Source: Kalaharituber pfeilii (taxonomy: Eukaryota > Ascomycota > Pezizomycetes > Pezizales > Pezizaceae). Taken from it: 64,000 bases of DNA. Both the position numbers and the translations under genes were made by a program. The notes beneath the pieces are model-generated. The model ran no database searches. It saw only the letters and a program-made list of their open reading frames with translations, and was not told the DNA's origin. This document shows, in pieces, positions 15,215 to 63,811 of this stretch (its first letter is position 1; the number at the start of each line of letters is the position of its first letter). Location of the stretch: contig WHUZ01000008.1 of assembly GCA_015179045.1 (NCBI GenBank), positions 1,557,501 to 1,621,500 on the forward strand, read 5' to 3'.

Positions 15215-15217
15215 AAG

Positions 15218-19210: not shown

Positions 19211-19605
19211 GGTGCGAGATGCAGCAGAACGAGTCAAATGTGATAGGTATGGTAGGTCTATTTCACCTCACGAGATGCAGCAAAATGAGCCGAATTTGAC
19301 AGGCACTTTGACAGGTATGATAGCTCCTCAATGGTGCGAGATGCAGCAGAATGAGCCGAATTGAATAGGTAGAACAGTCTCCCTCAATGGCGCAAGATGA
19401 GGATGGATGTGGTCAAGTTGACAGATATGACCTTGACAGGCAAAAATGAGGCAGAATAAGCTCAATTTAACAGGTATGACAGCTTTCTCTCAATGGCGTG
19501 AGATGTGGCCGAATGAGCTCAAGTTGACAAGTATTACAGGAGTCTTTCTATAGCGTAAGAGCAGCAGAATGAGCTGAATTTGTCAGGTATAGTAGGTCTC
19601 TCTTG

Positions 19606-19669
19606 CCCTGCCATGGCGAACAGCTGCAAGCGGAGTTACGTGAAATTAAAAAAAAAAAAAAAAAAAAAG
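19606..19669 (+). mobile_element. Short retroposon type A, copy A1
   Basis: CCCTGCCATGGCGAACAGCT, then GCAAGCGGAGTTACGTGAAA and TT, followed by about 22 A. A perfect 15-bp target-site duplication AGTAGGTCTCTCTTG flanks it (19591-19605 and 19670-19684). It sits inside a satellite unit, and removing the insert plus one duplication gives a continuous unit, so the whole insertion is 64 bp. Confidence 0.88.
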
Positions 19670-20560
19670 AGTAGGTCTCTCTTGATAGCACGAGATGCAG
19701 CAAAATGAACTCAATTGGACCGGTATGTACGTCTCCCTTGACAATACAAGATATAGTAGAATAAACTAACTTTAACAAGTATATAGGTATGGCAAGACTC
19801 TTCTACGGCACGAGATACAAAAGAATGAGCCAAATTTCATAAGTATGGCACACCTCTCTTACCAGCATGAGATGTAGTAAAACGAACTCAATTTGATAGG
19901 TATAGTAGCACCTTTCCACAGGAGAGTAGCAGAGTGAGCCAAATTTAACAGGTATAATAGGACTCTTTCTGCATTATGAGATATAGCAGAATGAGCGCAA
20001 TTTGATAGTTATTCAATAGCACAAGATGCAGCAGAACGAGAGTCGAATTTGACAGGTATGGCAGGTCTATTTCAGCCTGGGAGATGCAGCAGAATAAGCC
20101 GAATTTGACAGGGATTGGTAGATCTCTCTTGCTAACATGAGATACAGCAGGGCGAGCACAATTTGACAGGCATGACAGCTCCTCAATAATGTGAGATGCA
20201 GCAGAATGAGCTGAATTCAATAGGAATGGCAGTCTCTCTCGATGGTGTGAGATGGGGCAGAATGAGCTCAGTTTAACAGGGTATGACAGCTTCCTTTCGA
20301 TGGCGTGAGATGAGGCAGAATGAGCTCAAGTTGACAAGTATTACCGGACTCTTTCCACAGTGTGAGAACAGCAGAATGAGCCAAATTTGACAGGTACGGC
20401 AGGACCCACCTAGCAACGTGGAACATGGTAAAATGAGCTCAATTCACAGTTAAGGCTGGCCCCTTTCTATGGTGCAAAGTGAGGCGGTATGGCTCAATTT
20501 GACAGATACAATAAGATCTCCTTGATGGTGCGAGATGGGGCAAAATGAGAATGCGCTGGA

Positions 20561-21436
20561 CCGGTACGGCATGGTGCTAGAGGCCAGAAAAGGAAGCTAG
20601 GTACACATGAAAGGGCATATGCTGGACATCTGAGCAATATCATTGTGGGTAGATATTAACCGGAATTTAGGTAGAGTTTATGGGCTGTAACGAGGGTTTC
20701 GCTATCCATAGGTTCTACAATTATTAGCATTATACTCCACAAAATATATAAAATTAATACTAGAGCTCCCTGGATGCAGGAGTGGGATTACGTGATATTT
20801 ATGAGAATATACTGATATGAATAAATGCAGAGAAACGAGTATTGTACGGTCATGGAACTGGTAAAGAGTGTACAGTCACTTGACGCCGACTTTACGGGTC
20901 CCTTATCCACTACTGCTACACCTACACTCACCCTCGCGGTCGCGAGGTGGCCACATGCTAGTACTGTATGTACTTCCCTGATCTCGCGAACAACACCTCG
21001 CGGCATACATGGACCACCTTGTCCTCCTCGTTTGGTCCCCCTGCTGGAAGGGAACCGCCCTGCATAACGAGGCCTAATGTATATAAGTAACATCAGTACA
21101 TTACTGCCATAAACGTACGCTACATTACATCGTAACCATAAGGATCCTAACACAGTCTCTTATAACTCTAAGAATGGCCTACGAATTTAACAAAATAATT
21201 GATTATCCAACCGAGTGCATGACATTGGTATAATTTCTTTCTTCGTTTTTCTGGTATACATATAGATAGGGTTTCATGTTTACAAAAAATACGGGAAAAA
21301 CTGAATCGATGTAACGAAGACTGTATCGCATGTAGTCAATACCCTCTCCAACATATGATGAGGATCCCTTCTATCGTTACAAAGCAAAGCATCTATTACA
21401 TTGGTAAACCTCCTGCATTGTCATTTTGCGCAATTC
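20561..21436. other. Gene-free stretch
   Basis: No gene recognised. CCCTGGATGCAGGAGTGGG then ATTACGTGATATT at about 20768-20800 looks like a tail-less, decayed relative of the type A short retroposon. The GC-rich part at 20880-21065 shows no recognisable protein. Confidence 0.45.
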
Positions 21437-21507
21437 TCGCCATAGCCCAACGGGCGGTATGCGAGTAATAATAAAAAAAAAAAGAAAAAAAGAAAAAAGA
21501 AAAAAAA
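21437..21507 (+). mobile_element. Short retroposon type B, copy B1
   Basis: TCGCCATAGCCCAACGGGCG then GTATGCGAGTAATAAT, followed by an A-rich tail interrupted by G. The flanking duplication is TTGCGCAATTC (21426-21436 and 21508-21518), 11 bp and perfect. Confidence 0.82.
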
Positions 21508-21627
21508 TTGCGCAATTCCGTATCTAACCTCTCAAAAAGCGGCATATACAGACGTAGTAGACAATGGGCTTCTATGTTTACATGGTGGATGTTCTGTCCA
21601 TAACTTGTTTCAGCTCAAAAATCGAGA

Positions 21628-21725
21628 CTGCCATAGCCATAGGGCGGCATGCGAGTAATGATAAAAAAAAAAAAAAAAAAAAGAAAAATAAAAAAAAAGA
21701 AAAAGAAAAAGAAAAAGAAAAAGAA
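21628..21725 (+). mobile_element. Short retroposon type B, copy B2
   Basis: CTGCCATAGCCATAGGGCGG then CATGCGAGTAATGAT, followed by a long tail of A with regular AAAAAG steps. The flanking duplication AAAAATCGAGA is present at 21617-21627 and 21726-21736; its A-rich start makes the exact length uncertain. It is only 109 bp from B1, in the same orientation. Confidence 0.8.
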
Positions 21726-21736
21726 AAAAATCGAGA

Positions 21737-24028
21737 TTAAGCTACGCCAAGGGATTTGGGTATGTGCAAGTCATACAAAAGAGTCGTTAAATACAGCCGT
21801 TTGCACTTCCAAAAGTAGAAAGAAGGTGACGCTGCAAGGCGACCAAACATTCAATTTCTCACCGGGATCAGCCTGCTTTTTTTTTGTGTGTGTGGCTGCA
21901 TAGACCCATTGCCATACAGAGGCGTGGGAACGAATGCAAACTTCGCGAAAGAGAAAGGACTCATCTCGTGATAGGAAAGACAGAAATATTTTTCCACTTC
22001 CCACGCAAATACAAATACAAGGTGATGGAGCAAGCAGCCTCAAGCGTAACTATAGTGCCCCATACAGACATTTACACACGCAAAATCCTCTGATGGTTCG
22101 GGGTCTTCGACGAAAAGTATCTGGGAGCAGCACATCAACATGAGAGCAGACAAGGCGGGGAAATACCTCAAGTCATTCTGAGATGGGCCATTTACAACCC
22201 ACATGACGGCCAGAGTTCATGGCGTGCGATTACAGGTCGGCCGGAATTTCAACCAGCCTTACCTAAACCCGAATCCCCCGGCCGTGGGAGGAGGGCACGA
22301 GCAGTTCCAGGCAACTGGAATTATATATAACGTGCCTCAATTCGAAAACCCAATATCCTCCGCTGGAGCAAGGTGTTGCGATTACTGCTGATCCCGCAGC
22401 AATGGCATACACACAGCAAGGAGTTGAAGGTCAGTTTGCGTACTATGGTCAACAATATTTACAGCCAGCGCAAGGTGTTCAGCAGCAAGGTGACATGACC
22501 GGCATGTCATTTACAAGTATGCCTGAAGGACAACACCAGTCTGTATTCCTTCTACCGTCTCGAGCCAGAAATCGCTTACTGCGTTGACCCTTCAGTACGA
22601 TTATCTTTCAGCATTCAGTCTGCTAATATGAGCTGGTTTAGATGGGATACCCCAACAGCGAAGCAGAAGCAGGTGCTTTTGCTGAGATAACAAAAAGACT
22701 ACAATTGCAAATGTGGGGACTCTGAGGAACCAAACCCACTATCTCACCAGCTGCCCGTCACCCGGCTCACCACGTCTCAACACCAAGATCCGATAGACGA
22801 GGCGAATTCTCTTTAAGGAGCGGTTTGAGGTTGAGTCTCATTGAGTCGACTTCCAACGCCTCGCTGAAGAAACACCTCACGAGAGTCTAAAGTAAAGTCA
22901 AAACGCGTTTGTTTGTTCAAATCTCTTTAGATAAAACGCCGTTTTGTAGGCAATAAGTAAGCTCTCAGGGCTTACTTGCCATATATTTGTACCTACCTAG
23001 AACCTCAGTACACGGAATCTCTCTCTACCAGTTGTAATTAATCTCTGAAATGGATTTCCCCACCGGGAGCCTTTGAAAATCTCTATTTTTTGACACCCTT
23101 ACTCACTGGAGTTGTTGATCGTACAGTAACAGTTCGGTTCCCCACCCATGACACGCGCGGCCTTGATTTATTTATTTACAACACCCCTCCCTGCAACTTA
23201 CTGCTCTTTTTGCCGCGCAATAACGCTTGCTATTTCGTTCTGGGGTTTGGCATTCTGCGCTGAAGAAGAAAGATTGTGTGGGGATGAGCTTGAAAAAGAG
23301 CCTCTATTTAAACATGTGATTTGGGACGGATTGTCAAAAACCAACTTGTGTAAGAGAGAAGGGGGGGGAAGTGAGAGTGAGCGAGTGAGATAGTATGGTA
23401 AATTGAATAATACAGTACCGTAAGTAATTTCTTGAAGAAAGGCAGGTTAAAAAAAAAAAATTAGGTAAAAGTAGATATTCTAGACAAAAAGAGAAAAAAA
23501 GAAAAAAAAAAAGGTAAAAATCCATGATCCGTTTGCACACACAAATCCACATTACTACAAACAAAAGCAAGCTGACATCCGATCCGATCCGATCCCATCC
23601 CGCTATTATCATCCATCACCCCCCCAACATCCATAAAAACAATACTACTTTGTTTGTCCAACGAAAAAGCAAAATCAAAAACAAAAACGAAACAAATCAA
23701 TAAAACATGCACCGGCATTGCTCAAATTATAGATACAGTATACAACAGAAGTATTGAGTAACTGTTTGCAACAAGTAGTGCTACTATATGCACGTTTAGA
23801 AAGCTTCTCGCATCTCAAACAGCACTAAAAACCGACCCCCCAAACAATTGACTTTAGCAAACGGAACGGCAACAGTATCAAAAGTAACAAAGAGAGAGGG
23901 GAAAAAAAAAAAAAAAAAAAGAAAAGAAAAAAAGGCCAAGATAATAGAGGGACATTTTTGCAACACGACGGCCTTCAAAGCTTTGCTCCTCTCCAAAGAC
24001 AGCAAACTTCAGAAAACCATGCCCTTTT
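21737..24028. other. Stretch without a supported gene; possible Gln-rich coding fragment
   Basis: Around 22360-22585 the plus strand reads YPPLEQGVAITADPAAMAYT and on through QQYLQPAQGVQQQGDMTGMS, a Gln-rich, protein-like segment. Upstream pieces need frame changes, and I cannot connect it to a start or a family, so it may be an old gene fragment. The remainder is A-rich low complexity (23447-23510, 23900-23935) and a short GATCC repeat near 23580. Confidence 0.35.
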
Positions 24029-26923: not shown

Positions 26924-27059
26924 TGTTCTTGCCAGTGGCTGGCCGCCTGGCGGTTGTATACGACAAAACTAGGCCAGTCGCTGTTGAAGCAGCTGCTTGC
27001 TTCTCGGGCGCCGTAGCCGTTTTGCTACCAGAGTGAGCCGAGTCCTCCTCTTTCTCCAT

Positions 27060-32575: not shown

Positions 32576-32582
32576 TATAAAT
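32576..32582 (+). promoter_or_regulatory. Possible TATA box of the hexose transporter
   Basis: TATAAAT lies 90 bp upstream of the start codon, with a pyrimidine-rich stretch between. A position-based inference only. Confidence 0.35.
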
Positions 32583-39918: not shown

Positions 39919-39927
39919 CGATTGCCC

Positions 39928-43249: not shown

Positions 43250-46200
43250 TTACCTCCTATAACAAACCTCCAAAGTATCTTGACTTGGAATACTTCATTC
43301 TCCAACAACCTGCCCTACATATAGAAAACGTTAACCAGGGGTGCACTCTGAATAATTCAGCTCAGCTGAAAAAGGGATACATCAAGTAGAGACACTGAGA
43401 AATGACACAATTTATTAACGACTGTCCATAACTGTAAAACTCGGAAGTAGAGTTGGAAGGTCAAGTGCTACTGCAAGCTCCTGGCATTGAAGCATTAAGG
43501 CTGCTATGTATGAACAACGCGTGAGTGTAAAATGTAGATTAAGGTTACATTCATATGTAAGCAAATCATCCTGAGAGATTGCACTCTTCTGGATAGCGGA
43601 GATATACTTTGTTTTTAGAAGATGTGTTGTATAGACGTAAGGGGGGCAGTACTTAGCTGTATTCCAGTAAGTCACCAATACCAGCAGCAATAAGTATACA
43701 AACCCTCTAGAGTATCGTAGCCATCTTGCGCTCAGTGCTATATATATGTTTTCACATTTGTATAATACTTTTATCACATATCGAAGTGCCTTTTGAACTG
43801 ATAGAGGTATCTAGCAACTCCGTAGCTATTTTTAATTATACGAATGCTAGCAAGAACTTCAGGTATACTTATCCTACTACAATACCAGCTAACTAATCTT
43901 CTACTATAGCTACCAGAGAGCCTGAAGTTATATAATTTTTACTATACTGTGGAGTATGCTATAGCATCTCTAAAAGTAGGTGGGAGGTATACTGCGGAAT
44001 TGGCGCATATTTGTGTGTGCATGAATAGCCAATATATATGATATCTATATTTGTACAGTGATAGTAATTCAGAGTTGCAGTTCGTTCCATGTCGCTAGTA
44101 TGCTTTGTTCTGGAAATATGGTGTAATACTGTTTAGGAGAGGTGCCAAGAGGTAGTAGTGTTCGTTTATGCATCTTGGCTCGCTAGCACGTCAGGTTAGT
44201 ATCATATATAGTAGAAACTTTCACATTCCAGCAATACCGGGGTGACATACATCAACTGTGACGGGGATCAGAAATATGGATAGCTGAGGGCTTCATGTAG
44301 TAGCGTAGACCCAACCCAGCAAGACATGGCTGCATGCAAGAAGAGGGGAATTGGAAGCGCAATAAAAAAGCTGCCCGTCAAATATTAATTAAGCTGTATA
44401 CATGCTCTTAACTGCGCCACAAACACTTCGTTGCTACGGCAACTTTACCCGCATGTTGCAAAATCCCTCTAATTGTGGGGGAAGTTTTCAGCCATCTGTG
44501 GGGAAAAAGCAAAAAAAAAAAAAAAAAAAGAAGAAAGAAAAAGTAGAACTCTGCAAATCGCACAACCGATAAACAGCTCAGGTACCAGAAGTTCTAAGCA
44601 TTCCATCTTCGATTGCAGACCATTTACCTACCGATGTACTACCTAATACCTCGGAAAAAAAAAGTAGCTCATTGGGCAATTTTTAATTGCAGGAGAGATA
44701 AAAACCTCGCAGGTGCGGGGAAGTGGGTCGCGTGACAGAAGCTCACTCCACGCGTTCTTTAATTTGCGCTAGAAACGATAGCCAGGGTACATATTAAATT
44801 TGCTTGACAGTTTCTGCGTGAAAAAGGAAGCTCTGCATTGGGGTATCACAGAGCATTTTGTGACGGGAGACGTTGCATGGTTTACCCAGGAACAGGGATA
44901 TCAATGTGCTGCTTTACTTCCCGTTGTGAGAGACAACGTCATTTGCACAAAGCCAATACACAATCACCTAATACATTTGCCAAGAGGCTGCTGAGTTCCT
45001 ACTTGAAGCAAGCGCCTGGTCCGAGGCTATCAATCACCATGCTTCCTGTCGGACACCATTTGCTGACCTAAGATCTTCCCAGCAAGCCTTCTCACCACCT
45101 CACCAGTTGCCCAAGTATCAGGTAAGGAAGACGACGAGGGATTTCATCTGCAGCTCAAAGCTTGATGGGGTTTATATTTCAAGGCACCCGCTTGCAGCTA
45201 TTTGCCATAGCAGAGCAGGCTTTTATCTTCGGATAGCTCACCTAGAAAAAATGTAGGAGTGGTGATAGAAAAAGCAAACTGAAGGCTCTATCAATGTAGG
45301 TTCATCTAAGGCCACGACAAAACCACTTTTCGGCAGCATAGGATGAATTGAGGATTATCATAATCTACGAAATGGCCATCTTCGATTGGAAGGTTGCTGG
45401 ATCCAGTGCATTGGGCGGGCATATCGTCTGATTTTGAAAAAAGCTGGTTCATGTGGTACTACGTGGATACTGTATCCGTTGTAAGCTCCTGAAGATCGTC
45501 GGATTGTAAAAGGCAGCACATCATAGGTACTGTATTTGCATGCATCGTAGTGGCGTAACGTAAAATGGCTTGTTCACCGATATCAATTTGCTTCCTGTGA
45601 GACAAATGTCATGAGTAGAGTACTTTTGTGGATCATTTTTGGCGTTTCTGGTGCGTTGTCATGTGAGTAATCAAGATTCTCGTGTTCCTTCAAGCCTTTA
45701 GAGTGTTTACCGTCGCAGTTTCACCGTTATCGACTTGCGACATGTGCTACATCTGTGCGAGAGAAGTGGCGCTCACGCCAGGGGTCCCAGGATGCCGTAC
45801 CACCTTACTATTTCGTTACCGGCGCTCACATGTTAGGCGTTTCTGAGGTGTGGTCTTCGACGATCCCTAAGTGATCCGCAGAGAAGATCAATCCAGCGTA
45901 GGTTGTACGTTCTTTTAGTATTTCTGGACATTATGAATTGTCATCCCAATTACATACTAACCCGTAGCTGCTGTAAATATACTGCGAAACTTCTTTGCGA
46001 TGGTGAAGCTGTGAAGGTGTTATATAGTCCTCTCTCTTTTTAGTCTTGTGGATTAGTGGTGTCCTGAAGTAGCACGAGGTCGCATTAAAATGGATGCAAT
46101 AAACCTCAGGCTGGGATATATATGTCCCCTTTGTTTTTATGATCATCAGAGTGGCATTGACCACCCATGTTTGAATTCCAATCACGGGTCACTCGACATC

Positions 46201-48539
46201 TGCGTAGACTGACTTTCCTTCATAGTAATGAACCTGAACTTAAACTGCAAGCGTATAAGAAGGGTTACTTAGGCTGCGTTGTGAACATTGGTTGCGATGA
46301 CAGTTAATGACGCTGTTAACAGGGGTTGAGCCGCTCAAGGGACTATGATAGGAAACACAGAAGAAGAACACTGAAACACTGAGACACAGGGATCACAGAT
46401 CTGGTATTCGCGGAGGTTGTTCTAGTTACAAAAAATGGAGCAGAAGGGCCTCTCAAAAAGCAGAACACCAACTAATTACATGAGAACGTCATATGCAAAC
46501 AGGAATCAGTGTTTGTACCCATGCCGTTTGTAGTTTGCTCCATGCATACCATTTCATGTATTCCTCCGTTTACTCTATGCACCTATCCCCCTGCAACACA
46601 GCATAGAGGCGAGGTCACGGTATCCTCTTCCTGTTCCTCAAAGGAAACTAAAGCCATATGAATTATGTTTTAACTACTTCCAACTGTACCTGAAAGGCAA
46701 TTTAAGCCCGCAATTAGCTGCTTAAGTGGAATCTACGTGCGAACTAGTTTCCAGCGGTTGTGAAAGATAGCTGGGTAGGTATCACAAGGTTGGAACTAGT
46801 GGTCTTTAGAGGATAGTTGAGACTTGATTATGATGAACTGGAGATGCCCTATGGCATCAGCATAAAAACACCCAAAGCAGGCCGTTCGAGCTTGTGGGCC
46901 AGTACGGTTCGAGCAGCGGGCCAGGACAAATTTGGTTAGCTTGGCTCCCTAATTAAGTAACTTATTTGAAGGGAAGCGCTTTCGCTTGCCGATTTATGTA
47001 CTTGTATTGTATTGCCTTCACTTTGATTTAACTTACAAGGTACGAAAATGCTGAGTATTTGGGTGTATGTGCTTGGCATATACCCATGCATTGATATATG
47101 CACAGGGCCTCTAGTTCCAGACAAGCTACTATCCTTCATGCCCAGACTTTGGAGTTGGGAAAGTCGCCCGGGCGGACCCAATTCGTGTTCAAGCATGTTC
47201 TCGTGCCCACACTATTATTTTCGGCCTTCACGGCCCGTCTGGGTACGAGAACAGTTAGAGCAGTATGTGGACATTTTAACAGTAACCCGGCCTATAAAAA
47301 TTTGAGATACAAAGGCAAACGGCGCGTGGGAGCGGTGTGAAAAGCTTGGATCAGTTCACGCAATCTGCGGTGCTAGCATTACCAGCTTCAGAATAAACTC
47401 GCAGCGAAATTTGTCAACTGCAATAGCTGGACTGCATATGCCTTACAGGAAATAGCTGGTTACGAGACTAAAGCAGTAGAGAGAATGTGAACGCCCTAGG
47501 AAATCACGAACCATATAATAAAAAGAGTGTATGAAAAGAGGGCTCATCCCAATAACCTCGTGGTCCAGTAAGAAGGGGTGATTGAGTAGTACACTTTTCA
47601 TTTTATTTTTTGGTTCAGTATCCGTCTGCAGCACTGCGGGACTATGCCTTATGGCGAGATAATGCTAACGTGGGTGAAGAAACATCATACAGTACACCCC
47701 TCTCTCGATACACTCTTCTCAGTGCCTTCTCCACCGCTGCTATGAAATTTCGAACTCTGTCTTTTCCCCCTTTCTCGGTATCGCTCCTGTCCTCATCTCT
47801 GTCCACTACGGGGTTTGTGGCCCTCGAGCTCCACCACCTGTGACCACCACCACCACCACCACCTGCAATTATTCTGCTTCTTTGGCAGCCTTGAAGGCTC
47901 TACACCTATGCTGGGAGAACGTCATAAGAGAGAAAACAATTGACGCAGTTCAGGTCTAAGAGAGGGCCTAACATACACAGCGGAGGATCATAAATTTTAC
48001 TAGGATCATCTTCTGCACATTCCGAAGTTCTCATACCGCTCCCCTATAGAAATATATATCATTTAGTTTTTATTTTAATCTGTATATAGGCACTCTCTTA
48101 ATATAAGCAAATATCCATTCTAAACATCCCCTCATTTCCCTCCGAGTTCGGACTACAGGCTTATAATAGGGGTTGGCTGTACCAATATTATCTTGTGAGC
48201 AGAACTGAGAGTTGCCAGTAGGACTTGGCGCAGTGGCAGCAGAGTTTGTTTCTCTTTTTTTGCACGGAGGAAGTGGGGTACGACAGTAGATGGAACCTGA
48301 GTTCTTCATCTTTTTTCTTGGTTGCTAACATAACTGTGGACGGTGACTCACTAGACCTCTTTCTACATCCTGTTAGGTTGAAGCTTGTTCGGGGAATGAC
48401 CTCCTGCTAATCAAACAGATGACTGGAGGTTTTGGTCACTTAGAGATCTACGACGCACAGAACCTCTCTTCATGATATCTATTCATAAAGCTATTATCAA
48501 TCACCACTAAAAAGATAAGGATATACAAGTGGGTTAGAT
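43250..48539. other. Gene-free stretch of 5.3 kb
   Basis: No gene is recognised. Minus-strand open frames at 43415-43777 and 45931-46185 and plus-strand frames at 44800-45071 have no family resemblance. An inverted pair GTTCTCGTGCCCA / TGGGTACGAGAAC (47197-47209 and 47239-47251) and the word CTGGTTACGAGACTA at 47454 are the only structures I see, besides a CCACCA run near 47845. Confidence 0.5.
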
Positions 48540-48598
48540 CGCTGTAGCCCTCAGGGCGGTATGCGAGTGATGATATTAAAAAAAAAAAAAAAAAAAAA
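48540..48598 (+). mobile_element. Short retroposon type B, copy B4
   Basis: CGCTGTAGCCCTCAGGGCGG then TATGCGAGTGATGATATT, followed by about 21 A. The hairpin stem AGCCC/GGGCG is kept with loop TCA. No flanking duplication is visible; the tail runs into a G-rich tract. Confidence 0.7.
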
Positions 48599-48709
48599 GG
48601 GGGGTGGGGGGAGGGGTTGGACGGGAAGGCGGGAGCAGGCTGTTGGGATGGGCATAGGTCAAGATCATTCCATCTAGGAAGGAGAGCCACGGTTAATGAT
48701 GCAGAAGTA

Positions 48710-49043
48710 GTGAGCGGCACGAGCCGAGCCAGCTCGAGCTCGACTGATCTTGAGCTCGAGCTGGCAAACGAGCCAAGATCATGCTTGTGTTTTTCTTGAC
48801 AGTTCGCTAAAATGCTTAGCCAGTGCAAGGTTTCATAAACTGTAAATACCTACTATAGTAATAATTAGAGACTTGGAGCTCATTCTGACCTACCAACAAC
48901 TTCGAAATGCACAACTTAGCTGATAGTAGTGAGAAAGATGAAAATTTAGCTTAGTTTAGTTTAGTTTGTCAATATTATGTATATAATCAATCCAGGCTCG
49001 AGCTCACCCTCCAGCTCGGCTCGAGCTAGCTCGTGCCGCTCAC
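48710..49043 (-). repeat. MITE with GTGAGCGGCACGAGC ends, copy 1
   Basis: Perfect terminal inverted repeats GTGAGCGGCACGAGC are flanked by TA on both sides (48708-48709 and 49044-49045), 334 bp. The subterminal regions are packed with GAGCTCGAGCT/AGCTCGAGC words. The centre shares GATTGATTATATACATAATA, then TTGACAAACTAAACTAA and AAGTTGTTGGT, with the copy at 63812, in the opposite orientation. Confidence 0.85.
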
Positions 49044-49583
49044 TACGGCAGGCGACCAAATGTTCAGGGTAGAAACATAATTCCATTGCATGGTGCTGCA
49101 GATGTCGGAAACAGGAATACAGCTTGCTCCACTCTTCGATAGTCTGGTTGCAAATAATTACACTACGAACGAGTTGACAAACGGTAATGAAAAATGTGCA
49201 CTACGCTAGTTCTGGGGTGATTGCGATGTGCGACATCGATGATGCATGCTGTTAAGTAGGTCGGACAGCAGCAAAAACAAAAGCTGGAGGTACATTCATG
49301 TTCCACCACTTGCATTGAACAAGAGATCGACAGAAGTACGCAACTAGTCGAGTTGCCGCTGGTAATCAGTAAGTCTCTCAGGGTAACCGTTACTCCGCTG
49401 TAAAGACAATTCCATTCGCTCTTAGCGTTAAACACACGGTACGGCTACTTTTCGTTTTTCCTCATTTCAAATTTCCTTTCATTCATTCACTCTTTCTTTT
49501 CTCATTAAAAAATATTAAAGGGTGAGTGCTGTTATTGAATAGGTTAGGACCACTTATGGAATCAAGTACCACCATATATTAGT

Positions 49584-49674
49584 GCCCTGTCATGGCGAAC
49601 AGCGGCAAGCGGGGTTACGTGGGCAAAAGAAAAAAAAAAGGTCACGTGGAAAAAAAAAAAAAAAAAAAAAAAAA
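49584..49674 (+). mobile_element. Short retroposon type A, copy A5, with two A tracts
   Basis: GCCCTGTCATGGCGAACAGC then GGCAAGCGGGGTTACGTGGG, followed by CAAAAGA10, GGTCACGTGG and about 24 A. The repeated CACGTGG plus a second A tract suggests a tandem or twice-primed tail. No clear flanking duplication is seen. Confidence 0.65.
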
Positions 49675-50350
49675 GACTTCCTACTCCCGTGTGAGATACA
49701 CATATTTCGCCCACGATTCAGGGTCTTCCAGATATAATGATTTCTTATAACCGAGTTATGAGATTATTGAGCGGCAAGCGCAGTTGTTCCTCCAAATCCG
49801 TGGCAAGTGACTCATATTCCTTTCATTGACAGTCAGATCTTTTCTTTGCATTGTAGTTCTCGACAAATTCTAATAAGATAGAGTAACATATAATGCTTTG
49901 CTCTCGAAGATAAGCACCCTGGGTTTTGAATTGGTTATTGTGTGCGGAATATTGTTTACCTAACTGCCCTCGCTCACACTCATCTATAGCATATAATATA
50001 TTGATTTCCTCGTCATTATATGTATTTTTTCTGATTATTTTTGAAGTCCTCCATATGACAACTCCGTTGCGTTTTTTATATATCGAATCTTGATTGATTC
50101 TTCTTTCGACTTCTAAATGCCGCCCCAAATTTTCTCGGCCTTGCAAGACTACCAGTTTTATGCTACTACCATTCTGCCAGTATCATTGCACTGACCAGAC
50201 GCAATCGAAGCCTGAGAAAGCAACAACGGTGCATGCAAGTCTCATAACTAGTTACGAGACCAAAAGGTACAGACGTGCAATTTAAAGTAGCGCTAGCGAA
50301 CAAGTTCCTCATTCCTACACATTCTTTTCCCCAATGGTACTGTAATATCA

Positions 50351-50422
50351 CTCGCCATAGCCCATAGGGCGGCATGCGAGTAATGATATAAAAAAAAAAA
50401 AAAAAAATAAAAAAAAAAAAAA
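50351..50422 (+). mobile_element. Short retroposon type B, copy B3
   Basis: CTCGCCATAGCCCATAGGGC then GGCATGCGAGTAATGATAT, followed by A18, T, A14. The flanking duplication is TACTGTAATATCA / TACTTTAATATCA (50338-50350 and 50423-50435), 12 of 13 bases. Confidence 0.82.
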
Positions 50423-50515
50423 TACTTTAATATCAGCAGGTTTGCGTTCACGTTCATACATAAGGACAATATTGCAATTTGACCCTACTGCTCTCAGTTT
50501 TCATACATATTGCCC

Positions 50516-50574
50516 ACCCTGCCATGGCGAACAGCTGCAAGCGGGGTTACGTGAAATTAAAAAAAAAAAAAAAA
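50516..50574 (+). mobile_element. Short retroposon type A, copy A2
   Basis: ACCCTGCCATGGCGAACAGC then TGCAAGCGGGGTTACGTGAA and ATT, followed by about 16 A. A perfect 13-bp duplication ATACATATTGCCC flanks it (50503-50515 and 50575-50587). It lies only 93 bp downstream of B3. Confidence 0.88.
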
Positions 50575-50587
50575 ATACATATTGCCC

Positions 50588-52803
50588 TCCTGTCGGACAG
50601 CTCACTCATGCACATTCAAAGTTCTACAGCTGACAGGAGCTTGCAAAATTTATATAGGCAAGTACAAACCAGCATGATACACCATCGTCTGTAGTATATT
50701 GCTCTTCAAGCCATCGCTACTCTTATGACTTTCTTGCTATTAATATTTCCCCCCCATTGCCTGCTTCACTTCTCTAGGAAGCCTTATCAGATTCTCGCAT
50801 CACCGCTCGGACTTCGGGACCGCATATCCGACCATCTCTATTTCCCTTTTGCTTCCTCACAACAGTCACACTACCTATGGCGGTTATGTCGCCGGTTCCC
50901 ATGATCCTCATCCTCCTCCCATTCTGCCCTCGCTCCCGCCGCCTCGATCAACATTTCTTGGCCACTATAGTCAGAAGCAGCTATTACTTGATGGGAAAAG
51001 TGCCTAAGAAGTTCAATTCTTGGAAATTTAGAGTATGTTCAAGGCACAGGTGGGTAGGACAGTCGTATGGTGACCATAAAGTGGGAAATGGAGTCATATG
51101 GCAAGGTATGTGCATGCACTGGATGATGAGAAGATTTGCTAGCCTATCATGGAGAGGCTGTACTCTACGAGTTATTCAAGTTAGTATGCATTCTCCTACT
51201 GTTAAATGCTGCACATATGTATACCATCATAATCGTTGAACAGCACGCAGATTGATCAAACAGATTAACTCCTCACCAGCTACCAATTCTGCTTGTTCTA
51301 GCATAGACGGTACAAAATTTCATAATTTGAAGATTCGCTGATTCTTCTCCGGCTCCGGAATTAAATCAAAGCGTGGAAGTTAAAATGTAACACAAGAACT
51401 GGAACGAGAACGAGAGCCGCGCGGCAAAACCGAAAAAAAGCACCAATATGTAATCCAAAACTATGAGTGAGTATTGGATACAACTTGAATCTATGAGTTT
51501 TGGTGCTTGGGATTGGATTGAGGTGGATGCATTGATGTATATCATTAAATGACTACGACTATGTTGTGGTAATTCTCGATCACCCCCTGTTCTCGTGCGT
51601 AGACTCTATCGTCCCCTAGTCTCCATTTGTTCTCTTTATGACCTCCGCTTTTCCTCAAAATAGGCTGTAGTCCCCATCCATCAATCATCTTATGAGCTTC
51701 TCAGCGCAAGCCAAGCTTCATCCCGACACTAACTCTTCCCGGGACTTTCACTTTCCGAGCTCCTGAACCATCCAAATTGCATTACCCAAATTTTACCAAG
51801 TTACATCAAACACCCTCACTACACAAGTTTCACGGAACCCTAACTTTCCGCACAGCCGGGTGCGAGGTGCCATAACCCTAACATCACAACCATCAAGGAA
51901 CGCTGCAGTACCGTACGTACCGCACTCTACTCTACTCTACATGGATAATAGCCCTTGTAGTTGACCAAGCCTAGTCTGGTTTAGTCTCATTAAAGTCAAG
52001 TCAAATTGGAAGGGGAGAAGCCAAAGGCCAAGAAAGTTGCGAACGAAAATGAAATTGGGATGGGGGGTATGGCTTACCCTCAACATACTGGCATATCATA
52101 TATACAAGTACATACATTGCTTGAGTAGCTCGAGCAATTGAGCATAGTTACTTGTAACCTATTGTTGAAGACGTTTCGGGATTACCCTTGGAGGTAGTAG
52201 TGCCAGCTTGCATAATGCTTAACGATCAACATCTCACTGGGAACGAGGCTAACATTTACCACGTTAGTCATGGTTATGAAATAAAAGAAACATTCGAATT
52301 CCCAGCGCCGGCGCCCGGTGCCGTCACCGACGGGATCAAGGGTCAAAGGATTACTGGCTCTAAAAAAAAGAACATGTACGTAATCATAATGCTGCAACTG
52401 GCAAAAGCGAAAAAGAAAAAAATTTCAACGTTGTAAAATAATGATAAAGATCAAATTTATAAAGCGGATTTGGAGTATTCACAGGTCCCCACAAACCTAC
52501 TTTTGGAATGATGGATATACAATACTACAATGATAGATGCCACACTGCATTCCAATTGCCGGTACCAATTCAATCTACTACGTCTCCGTGCCTCCAGTTT
52601 CTACGAAACCTCCAAAATTCCAGCTGGCAACACAAGATTAACATAATGTCTTCTCACTAGATTATTATAGAAGTCCCTCAGTCCATGGCTGCTTTGCAGC
52701 TAGGATACCATCGATAGGCTGATATCTATATATTGGGGTGGTGCGCAGCAAGAATATGTGATACCATATGCAAGCAAGAGATTTAGGTACAGTACATTGC
52801 ATA
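50588..52803. other. Gene-free stretch
   Basis: I see no recognisable gene. The plus-strand open frame at 50877-51239 has no family resemblance. TTCTCGTGCGTAGACTC at 51592 resembles a word at 12329. Confidence 0.45.
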
Positions 52804-52897: not shown

Positions 52898-52899
52898 TA

Positions 52900-54395: not shown

Positions 54396-54419
54396 TTACC
54401 ACTCACACTCCTAATCAGT

Positions 54420-55440: not shown

Positions 55441-55452
55441 TGTTCCTCTTGA

Positions 55453-55505
55453 GGCCCTGCCATGGCGGACAGCTGCAAGCGGGGTTACGTGAAATAAAAA
55501 AAAAA
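55453..55505 (+). mobile_element. Short retroposon type A, copy A3
   Basis: GGCCCTGCCATGGCGGACAG then CTGCAAGCGGGGTTACGTGA and AAT, followed by about 10 A. A perfect 11-bp duplication GTTCCTCTTGA flanks it (55442-55452 and 55506-55516). At 53 bp in total it is the shortest copy. Confidence 0.87.
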
Positions 55506-55613
55506 GTTCCTCTTGAAAGCTATAGTATCTGCTGAAATCAAGTAGCCCGTTGACAGAATTTATACTAGACAATTGCTTGTCCTGCAGCTCATAGGACTAT
55601 AGCACTTGAAGAC

Positions 55614-56083: not shown

Positions 56084-56088
56084 AAGAC

Positions 56089-57256: not shown

Positions 57257-57263
57257 TATATAG
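57257..57263 (+). promoter_or_regulatory. Possible TATA box of the Zn2Cys6 gene
   Basis: TATATAG lies 90 bp upstream of the ATG at 57353. It lies downstream of the first in-frame ATG (57176), which favours 57353 as the start. Confidence 0.35.
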
Positions 57264-57352
57264 CACCATATCCTCCGCATCCTCCGATTCTCCGCCAACT
57301 CTGCCAGCCCCCAGCCCCCAGCCCTATCCTCCCCGACGAGTGTGAGCAAATC

Positions 57353-60040
57353 ATGGACCGCGACAACAGCAGCAGCACCCCCCCCGCGCTGAACAGAAGC
57401 ACAACGCATAGCCCACAACTGCAACCATCGACGCAGCCTGTGCCGTTACTGAATCGCCCCCCCAGCTCCGCTCCTCAGTTAATCCAGGATCTGTTAACGC
57501 ACGACCCTGTACCATCGCGGCCTTCACTGCAACCGGAAGCGCCAAATCCACCAGCAACCCCGTCAAATCCTCAGCGCCATGCTTGCGAACCGTGTCGCGT
57601 CGCCAAAGCGAAATGCGAACCACTCTCGGGCTCGGGGGATAGCAATGCACCACCGGCTGCAGGCCCATGCAAGCGGTGCGTGAAGACGGACAGGGAATGT
57701 GTGTTCGCTGAACGGAGCAAGACGAGGAGAAGGAAGCGGAGGGACAGTAGTGCTGGGCTAGGTGGTGCAACTGACCAAAGGGTTGAAGAGTTGGAGCGTA
57801 GAATTGAGAATTTGATGGCTGTGGGATTAGTGAACGGAATCACTAGGGTTGATGGCATTGCGCGGAGCAGGGTGAATGGAAGCGTTGAGCCGAAAGAGCT
57901 GGACAAAGGGCGTGTGGTGGAACAACGTTCCAGGATCCAGGACGTACTCAATAGCCCACTCGAAAGAGTCGACGACCTGGACAGCCGAGAGCCAGCAGCC
58001 AAGCGGTGCAGGATTGCATCTGATCTTGGTGCGCTACCGCCTCAACAGGATCCATGCAACGATGGACCGACTTTGGAATCATGCCCACAGTATCCGCCCT
58101 CCTCTCAAAAAGCATGCTCCTCTCCTCTCTCGCCACCAAACTCACATCAATCGCCTTTCCAATCTGGATGCCCATCATACGATCCATTACGCTCTGCGCA
58201 GGATGCGCCCGCCGTAAACAGACGAAACCAGAATGAGTTCCAGGATGTCATTGACAAAGGCTTCATCTCGCTCTCTCTGGCCACTCTTCTTTACAACCAT
58301 TTCACAGTAGAGCTGCTCCCTCATACACCATTTATTGTCCTCCCCCCTTTCTTCACAGCAAGTACATGCCGAACAACAAGGCCAGCTCTCTTTCTCGCTA
58401 TATTGGTCGCCACGCTCCACAGGCTGCCGTCATCTGCAACCGAGATCAGCGAGGCGAATGGAAGCGCTCTGATTGATGAGCTGCACTGGATGTTTGCTGA
58501 AAGAATATCATACAAGGGTGAAAAGAGCTTGGATCTCGTGCAGGCCTTGCTTGTGGCCTGTAGTTGGTATACGACGCCTGCAGATCAAGGGTTCCTCAGC
58601 ATAATGGAGAAGCACAAAGGTTTCATGTGGCTGACACAAGCAATATCTATTTCGTATGACTTGGGGCTGGCAAGGCCGGGTGCATCAGGGCTCCTACGAT
58701 GTATGTCTCATGTAAACCAGTCCTCGAAGTCTAATGCACAGCAATACAGTATAGACGAGACAGAGGGAAGGCGGGCAGTGATGGGATGCTACTGGCTGTC
58801 AGTCAACATCTGCATGATTTTGAAACGGCCGCACCTCATGAAGTGGTGCCCTGCGTTGAATGACTGTTTAGAAACGCTAGTGAAAGTCGCAGATGGCGCT
58901 GGAAAAGGTGCAGCAGGTAGTGACAAGGTATTGACGGAAATGATAAAGGCAGCCAGAATAGTTGAAGACTCTGGAATGACTGGATGTTTTGACAACACCC
59001 AGGATCTCGTAGGTGGGGCAAGTTTAAAAGCCGCTAGAGTCAAATTCATGACTACCGCATTGGAGAAGCAGGTTGAGGAGTGGTGGAATGGGGTACCAGA
59101 TAACGTGAAATATCACAGTAAGTATTCCTTGATTGTTGATATCCAGGTAGCATGTTCTTAAACTTCTATAGATTCGATCTCCTTGACATATTACGTTCTC
59201 AAAATCCACATTCATGAATTCTGTCTACATACGTCAGAGTGCCCATCAGCAAACAATCACTCGTCCGAACCTCCCCGTCATGGATTTGCTGATGCGGTTA
59301 TCCGAGCTCGACTTGGTGCTGTGCCACCTTGGAAGTTACCCCCGGCTTTGACGGCTAGCTATATGCCTGTCATTATTCAGTCCGCACATTCTCTACTAGA
59401 CACCTTTCTCGCGCTCGGCAAAAGTACGATTGACGTTTTACCCCATGTAGCGTTTGGAAGGATATGTTATGCTATTCTGGTCTTGGTAAAGGTTGAGCGG
59501 ATGCTTTCGGCGGAAAAGGGGCCAAACGACAAGCTTGTGGAGGAAATCAAGCTTGGCTATTATTTGGAGAAAGTGCTCGCAGCCTTTGGTCGGGAGCTTC
59601 CTAAGAAAGGATTCTGTGCTGCGCCCAAGTCCTGTTTGGGAAGACTGTTCAAAAACATGAAAAATTGGTGGGAGCGACAGAGCAAAGGATGTGGTGGAGA
59701 TATCGGAGAATGTTCTAAAGTCATAGGGAGTGGGCTATTTGGGAACAGTGGTGCCCCGGTAACCCCTGATCCATCCTCGTCGGCTTCAGCATATGTGTCA
59801 CACGAGGCAACTCCGAGCAGTTACGCAACTCCGAGCTTCACTCCAGTTAATCCCTCTACAGTATCAAGCTTTCAAAACGGTCAGGATCATTTATCACCCC
59901 CAGAAAGCGTCATAGGAGGAACCTCTTTATTCCCGGGAACATTAGAAGAATTATCACTCGGCGGTTGGAATTTAGGTGATGAGGATTGGATAGCTCTCAT
60001 GAATGCTGGCGGAAATGGGATGCAGCTGTTTGAGTTTTAA
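57353..60040 (+). CDS. Zn(II)2Cys6 fungal transcription factor
   Basis: Two exons, 57353-59117 and 59172-60040, with a 54-bp GTAAGT..ATAG intron, give 877 residues. The DNA-binding cluster starts at residue 78: CEPCRVAKAKC, then CKRCVKTDREC. The spacing is C-2-C-6-C-17-C-2-C-6-C; the 17-residue middle loop is longer than usual. It is followed by a basic stretch (KTRRRKRR) and a short coiled coil (DQRVEELERRIENLM) that probably dimerises. The middle region (YNHFTVELLPHTPFIVLPPF, LHWMFAERISYKGEKSLDLV) resembles the helical regulatory domain of such factors. The C-terminus is Ser/Thr/Pro-rich and then acidic (LGDEDWIALM), a likely activation region. The frame is also open upstream to 57176, but that part is low-complexity and precedes a TATA-like site. 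No neighbouring pathway genes reveal the target. Confidence 0.88.
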
Positions 60041-61733
60041 GGCATGATTTGGTGCGGAGTTAAAGGGTGTTGAGGAAGCTTGTATGCTTTGATGGTGGTA
60101 AAGTCGAAGCATATACAAGAGAGTAGAATATAATGACTTAATGTATATACAGTTGTTGGATGACTTTTGCTAGATTCATACCCCTTCATGTTAGGAATTT
60201 TCCTTTTTTGATGTCCGAAGATTGATTGGTTCTATTGGATATTACGGCCCTGGCTTCTTATACTGGTTTTAGGTTTCGTTTCTTTGTGTGTCTTTTTCAG
60301 TTATGATATCTCTATCTCGCTGGTAGCGCCGGCTGGTGATAATTCTAACTCAGCTCTCATAGTATTCGTTCTTCCCTCCATCTTCTCATTGGCTTTGTGT
60401 TGGGTTGTTTACGGACTTTTCTCGCTGCACACGCTTTCATGCCCATATACTTTAATACCTTGCGGTCGTTTTTTTTCCGTCTATGGAATTTCGTTTCTGT
60501 GTCAGGTGCATGAGTTTCGATGGGATTACTACACTGGATTTTTTTTTTTTGGGGGGGGGTAAGGAATTATGCAAGTTAATGGAACTTAGGTTAATGTAAT
60601 GGGGTATCTTATCTGTTTCAAAATTCGGCATATTACTGAATGTTGGCACGGCTTTCTCCGTGAGGTATCAAGAAAGGTGTTATGAGTCTGCGAGAAATTT
60701 GACTGGGATTATTTCGACGGGAAAAAACTTCCGCGTGCACCGAATTTGCTCCGCGAGGTTTCAAGCTTGTGGAATGTTAGATATTGATAATGGAAACTGT
60801 GTCTATTTTTTTTTACCGCTGAATGGAGAGAATACGGAGGCAGTACTCTGGTAGTACCTTTGCCAATTTTTTTTCCGATCACTATTTTTGCAAGAAGGAA
60901 AAAAGAATAAATCATGGATATTTTTTGTTGACCTAATATGCATAGCAAGTGGAGCTGCTTACAAGATCAGCAATCACTCGGACTGATCGGTGTTATGCCC
61001 GAACAGATAATTCTTACTGTTGTGATTATAATACCCGGCAAACGACGGATTGTTCCGCGGCAACATTCAACATCTGGTATGTGGTTCCTTTGAGGCTTTC
61101 TGATTGGTCAGTTTTTCTTTTACCTGTTAAAAAATCCTATTTTATTGATGCGGTTCACTGGACATCTTTCTTAAAAAAAACGTTAAGGTTCCAAGGGTTT
61201 CCCGATCCAGAAACGCCGTGACCCATACCCGCATGGAGTTTGAGGCTTACATAGCTATAGACATGCAGGCACCAGGTATCATCCCTGCCGGCTGATCACC
61301 ATGCAGCGGGCGGGCGGTGATGTAAACCCCATATGTGAGCGCGCATATAGGGACATGCCTGCCACATCTTAAAAGAAAACCAGAAACCCTTGTTTTTCTT
61401 AACCATCTCAAAGGTGGGGAGGTACCACAACGCAGCAATATGTTACACGCGCACATGCACTGCAATTTATTCGGATTCGTTAGGTTACTCAGGTTCATTT
61501 AGATTTTTTTACCTCCGTGCAGCATGAGAAGACCCCCGGCGAGTGCGGCATTGGAGAGAAAAGGCTCCGTGAGCGAACGTTGTTGCTCCGTTCCGGTGGA
61601 GGCCGGGCAGGGGTGGGTTTAAAAACCAATCAGGAGTGTGCCGGATTGGAATCTGGGGGAAGGTGATTGGGTGATGGAGGACAAGGGGGAGATTTGAGTA
61701 GTAGAGGTATGGGTGTCGGAGTCGGAGCAAAGT
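60041..61733. other. Gene-free stretch
   Basis: It holds the 3' region of the transcription factor gene and A/T-rich sequence with a T10G9 run near 60540. No gene recognised. Confidence 0.5.
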
Positions 61734-62153
61734 TTAGGCCGATGGGGTGGGGGCACGGAGGCTGGGGTGGGGTAACAGGGAAGGGTGGAATGAGCCGAGG
61801 AGATGCGAGGTGTTGCAAGGGGCATAGGTAAGGAGAGGAGGGGATGGGAGAGTTGAGATGCGCGCTTGGGTTGCGGACCCGGGGTGAGGGGGGGAGCTGA
61901 GATTAGAGCCAAAAGCAGACTGCTCTTCTCGCCTTGTCGAAATCACGATCTCTTCAGCCACATTGCCGCGCGCTCGACAGGGGAGACGACGAGAAGAGAT
62001 GTGGGGTGCAGGCGGGGGGCGTCCAGTCGTGCTGGAGTGAGGGGGGGCCAGCACGATGGAGCGGATGAGCAGCGCTGCGGCGCCGGTGGTGGTGGTGGTG
62101 GGTGGAGGCGGGGAGGTCTGGATTCTTTTTGACAGAGAGAGCCCGCAGCCCAA
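61734..62153 (-). CDS. Possible small protein with an N-terminal acylation signal
   Basis: An open frame of 139 codons starts MGCGLSLSKRIQTSPPPP. MGCxxS followed by basic residues is the classic N-myristoylation plus palmitoylation signal, as in G-protein alpha subunits, but the rest is Pro/Ser/Thr-rich and shows no such domain. The region is much more GC-rich than its surroundings. Overlapping open frames exist in the other phases, so this may be an exon of a spliced gene or no gene at all. Confidence 0.25.
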   Translation of the reverse strand: MGCGLSLSKRIQTSPPPPTTTTTGAAALLIRSIVLAPPHSSTTGRPPPAPHISSRRLPCRARGNVAEEIVISTRREEQSAFGSNLSSPPHPGSATQARISTLPSPPLLTYAPCNTSHLLGSFHPSLLPHPSLRAPTPSA

Positions 62154-62691
62154 GGAGGTGCCTTTCGGTCAACGATTCTGGTGCTCTACAATCTGCTGAA
62201 AGCCAATTTTCTTTCTTTTTACTCGAGTCTTCGCTCTCCAGATCTTGAATAGGGAATGCTTACCCTCAATCCAGCTGCGCTCACGTGATATCTACTCATC
62301 CGTTCAGGGTAACGAAACAGGTGACAAATTTTCTACTCGTAGGCGGTCACGCTAGTTATGACGAGATCTAGCAATGTAAGTCTAATTTGACACCTGCCCT
62401 TTAACGGGCAAATAGTACAACATGCTATAACTAGTATTCACAGAATATTGAGGTCCAATACTGATTCGTGGCTAGGGAATAGAAGAGGGAGGAATATGTT
62501 GTGGTCTTGTCGGGAGTTCAGGCCTCTCTGGAGTGGACCAGTTCGCTCCCAGGTATTCCCGAAGGGACCAGAAGAATGTATATCGGCGATCAGTCAAGCT
62601 TAAGCTTTGTTTTTGTTTTGATTTATCTTTGTATTCCGTTGTAGTAAAATCAGACTTGGTTGCAAAAATGACAATGCAACACAAAACAAAA

Positions 62692-62726
<35 letters not shown>

Positions 62727-62875
62727 AATATACAGACGTAGCATACATAGTGGGTTTTGGTCCAGATAAGGGGTGCTATGACACATCTGAATTGCCGCCT
62801 ACAGGTCACATTGGACGTACCCAAGGCACTAGTAGCTGGGTAAGACTATTTGGGTGGAATAGTGGCTCGCAGAAG
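62154..62875. other. Gene-free stretch with a poly(A) run
   Basis: ACACAAAACAAAACA is followed by an A run of about 30 near 62693-62722, which may be a retroposon tail. The preceding sequence is not the short family described here, and I see no duplication. Confidence 0.45.
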
Positions 62876-62880
62876 CACAC

Positions 62881-63217
62881 TGTTACGGATACTACGATAA
62901 AGTAGCTAAAACGAGTGTGTAACTTAGGACAACGATTGAAGTTGGACCCCGTTCTTCGAGGCCGGGAGGCCTCTTTATGTAATTCAGCTCCCCAAGTGCG
63001 GCAGCTGTCTGTTCATTTGTTTATGCTATCTATGCTTGATAACTCAATACTTGGGAAACAATATCATGCTTAACAAGCCATGCTCTTACCAGTCACTGGC
63101 GCAACACTATCTATCAACCATGTGACTCGTCTTGTGATACGCTGCTATAGGCTGATGATTGATGATCAGGCTGAATGGTCACTAACAGCCTTACGGGTCA
63201 AGTCCAGGCCCGTGACA
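62881..63217. mobile_element. Solo LTR, 337 bp
   Basis: It starts TGTTACGGATACTACG and ends GCCCGTGACA, with the perfect 5-bp duplication CACAC on both sides (62876-62880 and 63218-63222). It shares terminal and several internal words with the 470-bp solo LTR at 55614 but is 133 bp shorter and otherwise diverged, so the two belong to related subfamilies. Confidence 0.87.
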
Positions 63218-63667
63218 CACACGGGCACAAACGAAGCCTGCTTCCAGTATATTTCAAAGATATGTATGACATATTGCGCTTCATTTCATCTAAAAAAAAA
63301 TCAAGTTTTGGAATCTGAGCTTGAGTAACTGGTAAAAAATACCTTGGAAAGATTGCATAATTGTATTTTGCTTCGCAATAAGACTGTCGATAGTCCAAAG
63401 CTTCAGGATGCCTTGGCGGCCTATGTGGCATCTTTGAACCATTTCTTACTTTGTAAAATTAAAGAGTGAAATTTTCCTGGGGCAATATTCGTTCCCACTC
63501 AAGAACTGAAGTACTTACATGTATTGTCGTGACGCCAGCAGCAGACACACAGTATGCGTAATAATACAAGAAAGACATAAGATGGAGTATCGTTTTCATA
63601 TACCGTTTTCACTGGGAATACAGACCCTAGGACAAGCACCTTTCAATGTACTCCGGTGGTGGTCTTG

Positions 63668-63672
<5 letters not shown>

Positions 63673-63701
<29 letters not shown>

Positions 63702-63740
63702 TCACGTAACCCCGCATGCAGCTGTTCGCCAAGGCAGGGT
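63673..63740 (-). mobile_element. Short retroposon type A, copy A4
   Basis: The minus strand reads ACCCTGCCTTGGCGAACAGC then TGCATGCGGGGTTACGTGAC, followed by about 28 A. The flanking duplication is GTGGTCTTGAACTT (63659-63672 and 63741-63754), 14 bp; its T-rich end touches the tail. It is the only copy on the minus strand. Confidence 0.87.
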
Positions 63741-63811
63741 GTGGTCTTGAACTTAATTGCCGAGCAAAAGTCATGCATTAAATGACTTGAGATTGAAAGC
63801 TGACAATGTTA

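Follow-up and report, generated by a model that had tools for sequence, protein, structure and literature searches.

Candidate tail-only retroposons built on the 3' hairpin of resident LINEs in Kalaharituber pfeilii

Very short retroposed sequences, with 37 to 43 bp ahead of an A tail, recur in a 64,000-nucleotide (nt) stretch of the Kalaharituber pfeilii genome (GenBank assembly GCA_015179045.1, contig WHUZ01000008.1, positions 1,557,501 to 1,621,500; hereafter, the window) and elsewhere in its 78.03 Mb, assembled in 360 contigs. Their core of about 40 bp is the 3'-terminal hairpin of resident long interspersed nuclear elements (LINEs) and of elements that carry the first LINE open reading frame (ORF1) only. 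The short copies share that hairpin with longer elements, form one class of a bimodal length distribution, begin at the foot of the closing stem, are flanked by target-site duplications, and occur in several core lineages. On the evidence of the sequences, we think it probable that they are tail-only, non-autonomous retroposons, each consisting of one LINE hairpin plus poly(A), which would be mobilized in trans and would have the 5' end set at the stem foot.

In the proposed mechanism, the template RNA would be a single hairpin of about 30 to 35 nt, followed by a short unpaired 3' segment and poly(A). The ORF2 product of a resident LINE would presumably bind the shared hairpin, nick the target, and copy the RNA by target-primed reverse transcription, leaving duplications mostly of 10 to 16 bp; nothing beyond the LINE hairpin and poly(A) appears to be needed, and the two together would suffice. 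Trimming or processing of the template RNA up to a folded or protein-held hairpin is most likely what would reset the 5' end to the closing-stem foot. We infer the role of the LINE protein, the trimming step, and the service of short copies as their own sources, as we do the cause of the fixed 5' end, be it RNA trimming, initiation, or an enzyme stop. That the whole information of such an element is one LINE recognition hairpin, that RNA folding or trimming rather than a promoter sets its 5' end, and that this remnant is itself retroposed is a possibility we entertain only tentatively.

Carriers of the shared hairpin

Two core types are distinguished: type A, (A)CCTCGCCATAGCCCATAGGGCGGCATGCGAGTAATGATA, and type B, GCCCTGCCATGGCGAACAGCTGCAAGCGGGGTTACGTGAAAT, each followed by an A tail. 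The genome-wide core search proposed in an original prediction, which had been made from the window sequence alone, returned thousands of matches at up to 3 mismatches (type B, 2,602; type A, 4,614; long and short elements together), along with 1,012 LINE-type tails at the same tolerance; reversed control patterns had zero matches genome-wide at up to 3 mismatches. No exact match to the B core was found in viral contigs, and none to the A core in prokaryote genome contigs. The commonest join of a B core to a long flank had 338 matches and one such type A join had 340 (up to 3 mismatches each), and the commonest long flank is, by difference, missing from up to about 2,260 of the 2,602 B cores, some of which belong to other long families.

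The implication that no longer relatives share the core proved wrong or incomplete, for many genomic copies extend further 5', and both LINEs and ORF1-only elements end in it. The LINE was sampled as 201 bases from the 3' end of each of 20 out of at least 150 scored matches to the ORF2 C-terminus (3,499 first-look candidates), each stretch beginning some 10 bases ahead of the stop. Every one of the 20 terminates in the type A hairpin and an A run, so that the LINE with a shared 3' end that had been suggested as worth seeking does exist; in one, at L092, part of the hairpin is deleted, and this copy was left out of the LINE tail profile. (L-numbered loci are genomic loci fetched for comparison, mostly picked through an exact core match.) The GCC of the tail lies 51 to 142 bases into these stretches, and a stop triplet, frame unchecked, falls within the first 25 bases in 18 of the 20 but in neither L108 nor L109. 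Tad1-clade LINEs encode a reverse transcriptase with RNase H and a C-terminal zinc knuckle; the ORF2 product here matches RVT_1, has an RNase H motif (YTDGS) by eye, and scores 20.2 bits for zf-RVT, below the cut-off of 27.5.

On the minus strand of L091, the reverse transcriptase (RVT_1) and C-terminal part are split by a type A insertion with a duplication of its own, and the LINE ends in a type A-like hairpin and A tail about 50 bp past its stop. A second ORF2 C-terminus, with 947 first-look candidates and open frames of up to 1,072 amino acids among its relatives, lies upstream of B-type tails in L036 and, more weakly, L022, and upstream of an A-type tail in L035. In the RVT_1 loci L061 to L090, no tail was found within reach, except for one diverged type A core in L086.

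In 21 of the 30 B loci with an exact core, long shared sequence lies upstream, each time with an ORF1-like frame, at 134 to 213 bp from the core in 20 and at 619 bp in one; the remaining nine have neither the shared flank nor the frame. Among 30 exact A loci, 13 have an ORF1-like frame upstream and 5 an ORF2 piece, of which those in L040 (659 bp off, with no shared flank) and L049 (flush duplication) may be unrelated to the core. The ORF1-like protein (L001 to L060; 21 B loci and 13 A loci) is about 45% identical between the A and B lineages and has no Pfam match. In the high-copy ORF1-only elements, no ORF2 lies between this frame and the shared tail.

Type A and LINE tails have a closing stem of 5 bp and an inner stem of 4 bp, and type B tails have stems of 7 bp and 3 bp. 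Across 69 distinct gap-free A/LINE tails (copies with indels, such as window 21628, are not in register), 95.8% of stem cells are paired, compared with 16 to 48% in slid controls; C-G forms the closing pair in 37 tails, A-U in 25, and U-G in 1, with 6 misfits, and one of the inner pairs is C-G in 60, U-A in 7, and a misfit in 2. In 49 rows hand-picked from 67, leaving out several that break the closing pair, 97.5% of cells are paired, and 0 of 500 shuffles were as high in pairing or in covariation score; pairs with two-sided change and further pair types were not above shuffles. Because the sequences are related, the shuffle results are not probabilities. Judged from these alignments, the type A stems covary. 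Type B stems pair in 97.7% of cells over all 31 distinct tails and in 97.9% over 28 rows, against 36 to 49% when slid.

Start points, duplications, and truncation

Two scans located tails and their 5' junctions. The first, over 354 kb of fetched loci and window, contained 155 tails, 95 of them non-ascertained, i.e., not the tail by which the locus had been fetched; the flank was repeated from another tail in 10 of the 155, the overlapping L028 and L029 included. The second, over 358 kb, used only the 3' part of the tail as its anchor, making starts inside the hairpin visible, and 145 of its 149 anchors had enough flank (74 non-ascertained and 71 ascertained); its reach was 300 nt upstream, and full LINEs are therefore outside its counts. 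For 1,000 mismatched pairs, the duplication score had a 95th percentile of 8 and a 99th percentile of 11.

Forty non-ascertained copies had a duplication score of at least 10; 26 of these start 0 to 8 nt before the GCC, 11 start further up, and 3 start inside, although one of these three, L005, is in fact a short copy displaced by an indel. With starts taken as uniform over 309 nt, the binomial p of finding 26 of 40 in nine positions is 2e-30, and the common 5' point that the original prediction had seen in the window thus holds both there and beyond. The 16 type B copies all start 3 to 6 nt before the GCC and are all short, and the 24 type A copies divide into 10 at 0 to 8 nt, 11 further up, and 3 inside. 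At a score of at least 12, starts at 0 to 8 nt were found in 13 of 13 B copies and 6 of 19 A copies (10 further up, 3 inside); among ascertained copies at score 10, the fractions were 4 of 4 and 12 of 15. When ascertained copies are included, type B starts, with the stem foot at −5, fall at −5 in 10 of 20 and at −6 to −3 in 19 of 20, and type A starts, with the stem foot at −3, lie 0 to 7 nt before the GCC, 15 of 22 at −5 to −3. A duplication score of at least 8, ending 0 to 8 nt before the GCC, was recorded in 16 of 50 exact A loci sampled (L115 is excluded, its match lying in shared long sequence, and L035 and L121 share a duplication).

Duplications measure 10 to 16 bp in short copies (n = 42; mean, 12.7) and 10 to 24 bp in longer ones (n = 14; mean, 14.4), a similarity that we count in favor of the same machinery having made both. 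No duplication sequence occurs twice among the short copies counted in the second scan. The L060 B copy and the window copy at 19606 have a duplication in common, as do L121 and L035, and because of this sharing each pair probably represents duplicated loci.

Like 5'-truncated LINE copies, the short copies share with the LINE only its 3' end, along with an A tail and duplications. LINE truncation points are scattered in the passages of PMC2104539 and PMC3747384 that bear on them; unlike such copies, those described here have one dominant start point, and the start-site distribution rules out random 5' truncation as the whole explanation. The assertion that these are not 5'-truncated pieces of something longer is thus right in that they are not ordinary truncations and wrong in that longer relatives share the core. 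Copies extending 5' with shared sequence had been named beforehand as a sign of truncation, and since such relatives do exist, that objection is half sustained; against it stand the bimodal lengths and the fixed start of the short copies.

A more specific proposal is that the short copies are ordinary 5'-truncated copies of LINEs or ORF1 elements with a strong hot spot, where reverse transcription from the A tail stops past the hairpin. Such a stop would agree with the 3' module common to the longer elements, with the few copies that begin inside the hairpin, with intermediate starts at −14, −45, −54, −61, and −63, and with 5' junctions that in some copies overlap the duplication, as in truncated copies. 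We nevertheless regard it as unlikely. The non-ascertained B copies start at nearly one place in 16 of 16 cases, and the obstacle in long B elements, the next upstream hairpin, has its 3' foot about 4 nt beyond the observed start, so that a stalled enzyme would leave a slightly longer copy and 5' trimming fits better. None of the six A/LINE stretches folded has an upstream structure stronger than its shuffles (z, −1.3 to 0.7), and still the copies start at a similar place; in addition, the base at −5 is mostly G in B copies without a long flank but A in the common long B family. A reverse transcriptase stop at a stable hairpin upstream of the B core was also considered and rejected on the misfit of its position, type A misfitting as well.

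The copies that start inside the hairpin lie at L033 (minus strand, near 2500 in reverse coordinates), L054 +2486, L047 +2644, and L050 −2970, with only about 15 to 30 nt left before the A tail, and have duplications. A three-hairpin B variant (L007:1818-1899, plus strand; L010:2141-2223, minus strand; L029:2952-3033, plus strand) has unlike flanks just past its first hairpin. In L010 a 13-bp duplication ends at that point, L007 has a weak duplication, and L029 runs off its locus; as a lead only, the variant is possibly a size class of 80 to 85 nt beginning at the foot of the first hairpin. Copies of this variant at L010 −857 and L007 +1862 begin near the foot of the next-but-one upstream hairpin, as trimming to a stem foot would predict. 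Against shuffles, the folds of the variant do only modestly better (z, −1.2 to −1.6) and that of the common long B tail (L001) no better (z, −0.3), and the three hairpins are not in the predicted fold of the L036 tail.

Short lineages, promoters, and known systems

At position −5, B copies without a long flank, as judged by the upstream motif, have G in 33 and A in 5 (22 and 5 with a duplication score of at least 10), whereas long B copies have A in 26, G in 5, and C in 1 (18, 5, and 1 once near-identical flanks are removed); the Fisher p for this difference is 4e-9, taken before flank removal and with the C copy dropped. Of the 627 exact 26-base B cores in the genome, long copies included, 560 are preceded by GCCCT (280) or ACCCT (280), and 226 of the 280 ACCCT cases lie within AGGGACCCT, i.e., in long copies. 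The −5 base and these genome-wide counts argue that many short B copies would descend from short copies, not from the commonest long family. Four core sequences, including the LINE-type ATCGC/GCGAT core and a B variant, are common to short and longer copies, so that the short form has arisen in more than one lineage. A cap-derived G at −5, which the G of short B and the A of long B copies might suggest, was dropped as a general explanation, there being no extra G before ACCTC in type A.

Several points weigh against the tail-only interpretation. Given the −5 base, the short B copies are probably not recent products of the commonest long B family. The choice of loci by exact core match favors young copies, and at a duplication score of 10 a few chance duplications will be expected. 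Type A copies starting inside the hairpin (L033 and L054, and by eye L047 and L050) are such as a stopped reverse transcriptase gives. Type B varies on one side only, without two-sided covariation, and is equaled by shuffles (28 rows); the folding energies of nine hairpins are modestly below those of shuffles (z, −1.0 to −2.3); and the core hairpin is predicted in five of six longer A/LINE stretches, L033 being the exception, with no z below −1.3.

The distinctness of the short B copies could also point to a miniature short interspersed nuclear element (SINE) with source genes of its own, whose RNA would start at the −5 purine under an RNA polymerase III A-box-like element within the hairpin and be mobilized in trans through the LINE tail. 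The −5 base is a purine in 38 of 38 B copies without a long flank (the G and A counts given above) and is often A in type A; TRGC, as in the A-box consensus, stands at the tenth base from −5 in both types; and the short B copies, besides differing from long B at −5, have subtypes of their own (a GTCCT start in L015, L022, and L057), so that short lineages seem to propagate by themselves. We think this explanation improbable. No B box is seen by eye, the window has no tRNA and no Rfam match at the gathering threshold, at least three short copies have another base in place of the A of the A box (CCCTCAGGG in L042, CCCTTTGGG in L002, and CCCGTCGGG in L007), the stem accounts for the A-box-like motif, and short copies also occur with LINE-type stems (L012 and L019). 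The earlier view that A and B boxes are absent is upheld for the B box; type A carries TAGCCCATAGGG, which matches the A-box consensus at 7 of its 8 specified positions, and because this is the inner stem, with a loop not conserved among short copies, we do not read it as a promoter. Origin from a tRNA or known small RNA was ruled out by the absence of tRNA and Rfam family matches in the window, positions 50300-50620 having chance-level matches only.

It is highly improbable that the copies descend by decay from a longer SINE whose conserved tail is the only part still recognized. Repeat families do often keep the tail best, but in 42 copies the duplications are flush with the core and A tail, and among the flush copies are some whose core matches the 33-base B core exactly, a core shared by six short copies.

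Target-site duplications, an A-rich 3' tail, and a 3' end common to the partner LINE are SINE features found here; a head of tRNA, 7SL, or 5S RNA origin carrying A and B boxes is not, nor is the length, since SINEs are usually about 80 bp or more. The short copies work like a SINE but fail two of its defining features, the promoter-bearing head and the size. Resemblance to HAL1, a half-LINE with ORF1 only, concerns just their longer relatives, in that long B and many long A elements have an ORF1-like protein without ORF2. Trypanosomatid RIME/SIDER elements are likewise short, non-autonomous, and LINE related, and RIME is linked to a LINE; unlike the copies here, which keep only the 3' hairpin, RIME/SIDER elements have their shared signature at the 5' end and are far longer. 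That signature measures 79 bp according to the abstract of PMC2323293.

The stringent-type pairs (UnaL2/UnaSINE, ZfL2-1, ZfL2-2, and the fungal MGL/Mg-SINE) offer another likeness, in that a non-autonomous element shares the 3' stem-loop tail of a LINE; the conserved stem-loop of the LINE partner is present in type A and LINE tails, while type B pairs without two-sided covariation. The SINEs of such pairs have a promoter-bearing 5' part, unlike the short copies, which at about 40 bp have nothing beyond the hairpin left. In the portions of the literature drawn on, pairs of a LINE and a SINE with a common 3' stem-loop are well established (PMC4176376, PMC3747384), the LINE protein of ZfL2-2 binds its cognate stem-loop (PMC4176376), and the 3' end of Mg-SINE resembles that of MGL in Magnaporthe, where chimeras have duplications of 10 to 20 bp (PMC2104539). 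Tailless retropseudogenes derived from tRNA are also short retroposed RNA pieces, as a passage of PMC3747384 describes; the piece here differs in being a LINE tail plus poly(A) and not a tRNA fragment. The difference from established LINE/SINE pairs is that nothing but the stem-loop is left in the short copies. A literature search that covered few subscription journals and not Repbase, and is thus weak evidence, found no description of a hairpin-only retroposon.

If the tail-only interpretation is correct, these copies would be natural evidence that a hairpin of about 35 nt plus poly(A) suffices for LINE-mediated retroposition, far under the usual SINE size and with no promoter-bearing head required. 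The very large genomic copy set would provide data on the tolerance of the LINE enzyme, and the system would be a compact model for template recognition and for the fixing of the 5' end of retroposed copies.

Window copies and neighboring features

The nine insertions originally listed are all present where they had been placed. With nhmmer profiles built from other genomic copies, E-values were 1e-12 to 5e-17 for the five B copies and 4e-8 to 2e-17 for the four A copies, which excludes chance. Duplications of 11 to 15 bp, claimed for seven, flank seven of the nine, those at 48540 and 49584 having none, and the description of very short sequences retroposed repeatedly with LINE-type duplications is borne out in the window copies.

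On the plus strand, a short type B copy (CCCTGCC... and A tail) at 19606..19669 has a 15-bp duplication (19591-19605 and 19670-19684). Two type A copies follow: one at 21437..21507, flanked by TTGCGCAATTC (11 bp; 21426-21436 and 21508-21518), and one at 21628..21725, whose inner stem lacks one base, flanked by AAAAATCGAGA (11 bp; 21617-21627 and 21726-21736). No duplication was found for the diverged type A copy at 48538..48598 (48540 in the original prediction) or for the type B copy at 49584..49674. The A tail of the latter (49613-49674) has a second GGTCACGTGG and A run inside, which is either reverse transcriptase slippage or a nested, extremely truncated insertion. A type A copy at 50351..50422 has a 13-bp duplication with one mismatch (50338-50350 and 50423-50435), and type B copies at 50516..50574 and 55453..55505 are flanked by ATACATATTGCCC (13 bp; 50503-50515 and 50575-50587) and GTTCCTCTTGA (11 bp; 55442-55452 and 55506-55516), respectively. 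The minus strand carries a type B copy at 63673..63740, flanked by AAGTTCAAGACCAC (14 bp; 63741-63754 and 63659-63672), and a tenth, decayed type B core at 45187..45216 that is new to the list (nhmmer E, 2e-6), with no recognizable duplication.

The insertion at 19606 lies inside a long degenerate array (about 18441-20590) of related 25-, 57-, and 121-bp repeats (TTTGACAGGTATGGCAG...). Because the L060 B copy has the 15-bp duplication of this insertion, the array plus insertion is probably duplicated elsewhere in the genome. Among the coding features of the window are a transcription factor domain of fungal type, an Nse-type zinc finger, a sugar transporter, and a DDE_Tnp_4 transposase. At 14513-16429, the transposase, on the minus strand, adjoins a DUF6818 reading frame on the plus strand, and the two are probably one DNA transposon. 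A repeat whose ends are rich in CGAGCTCGAGC is present twice, at 48700-49050 and 63800-64000, and pieces of it also occur in L007, L022, and L093.

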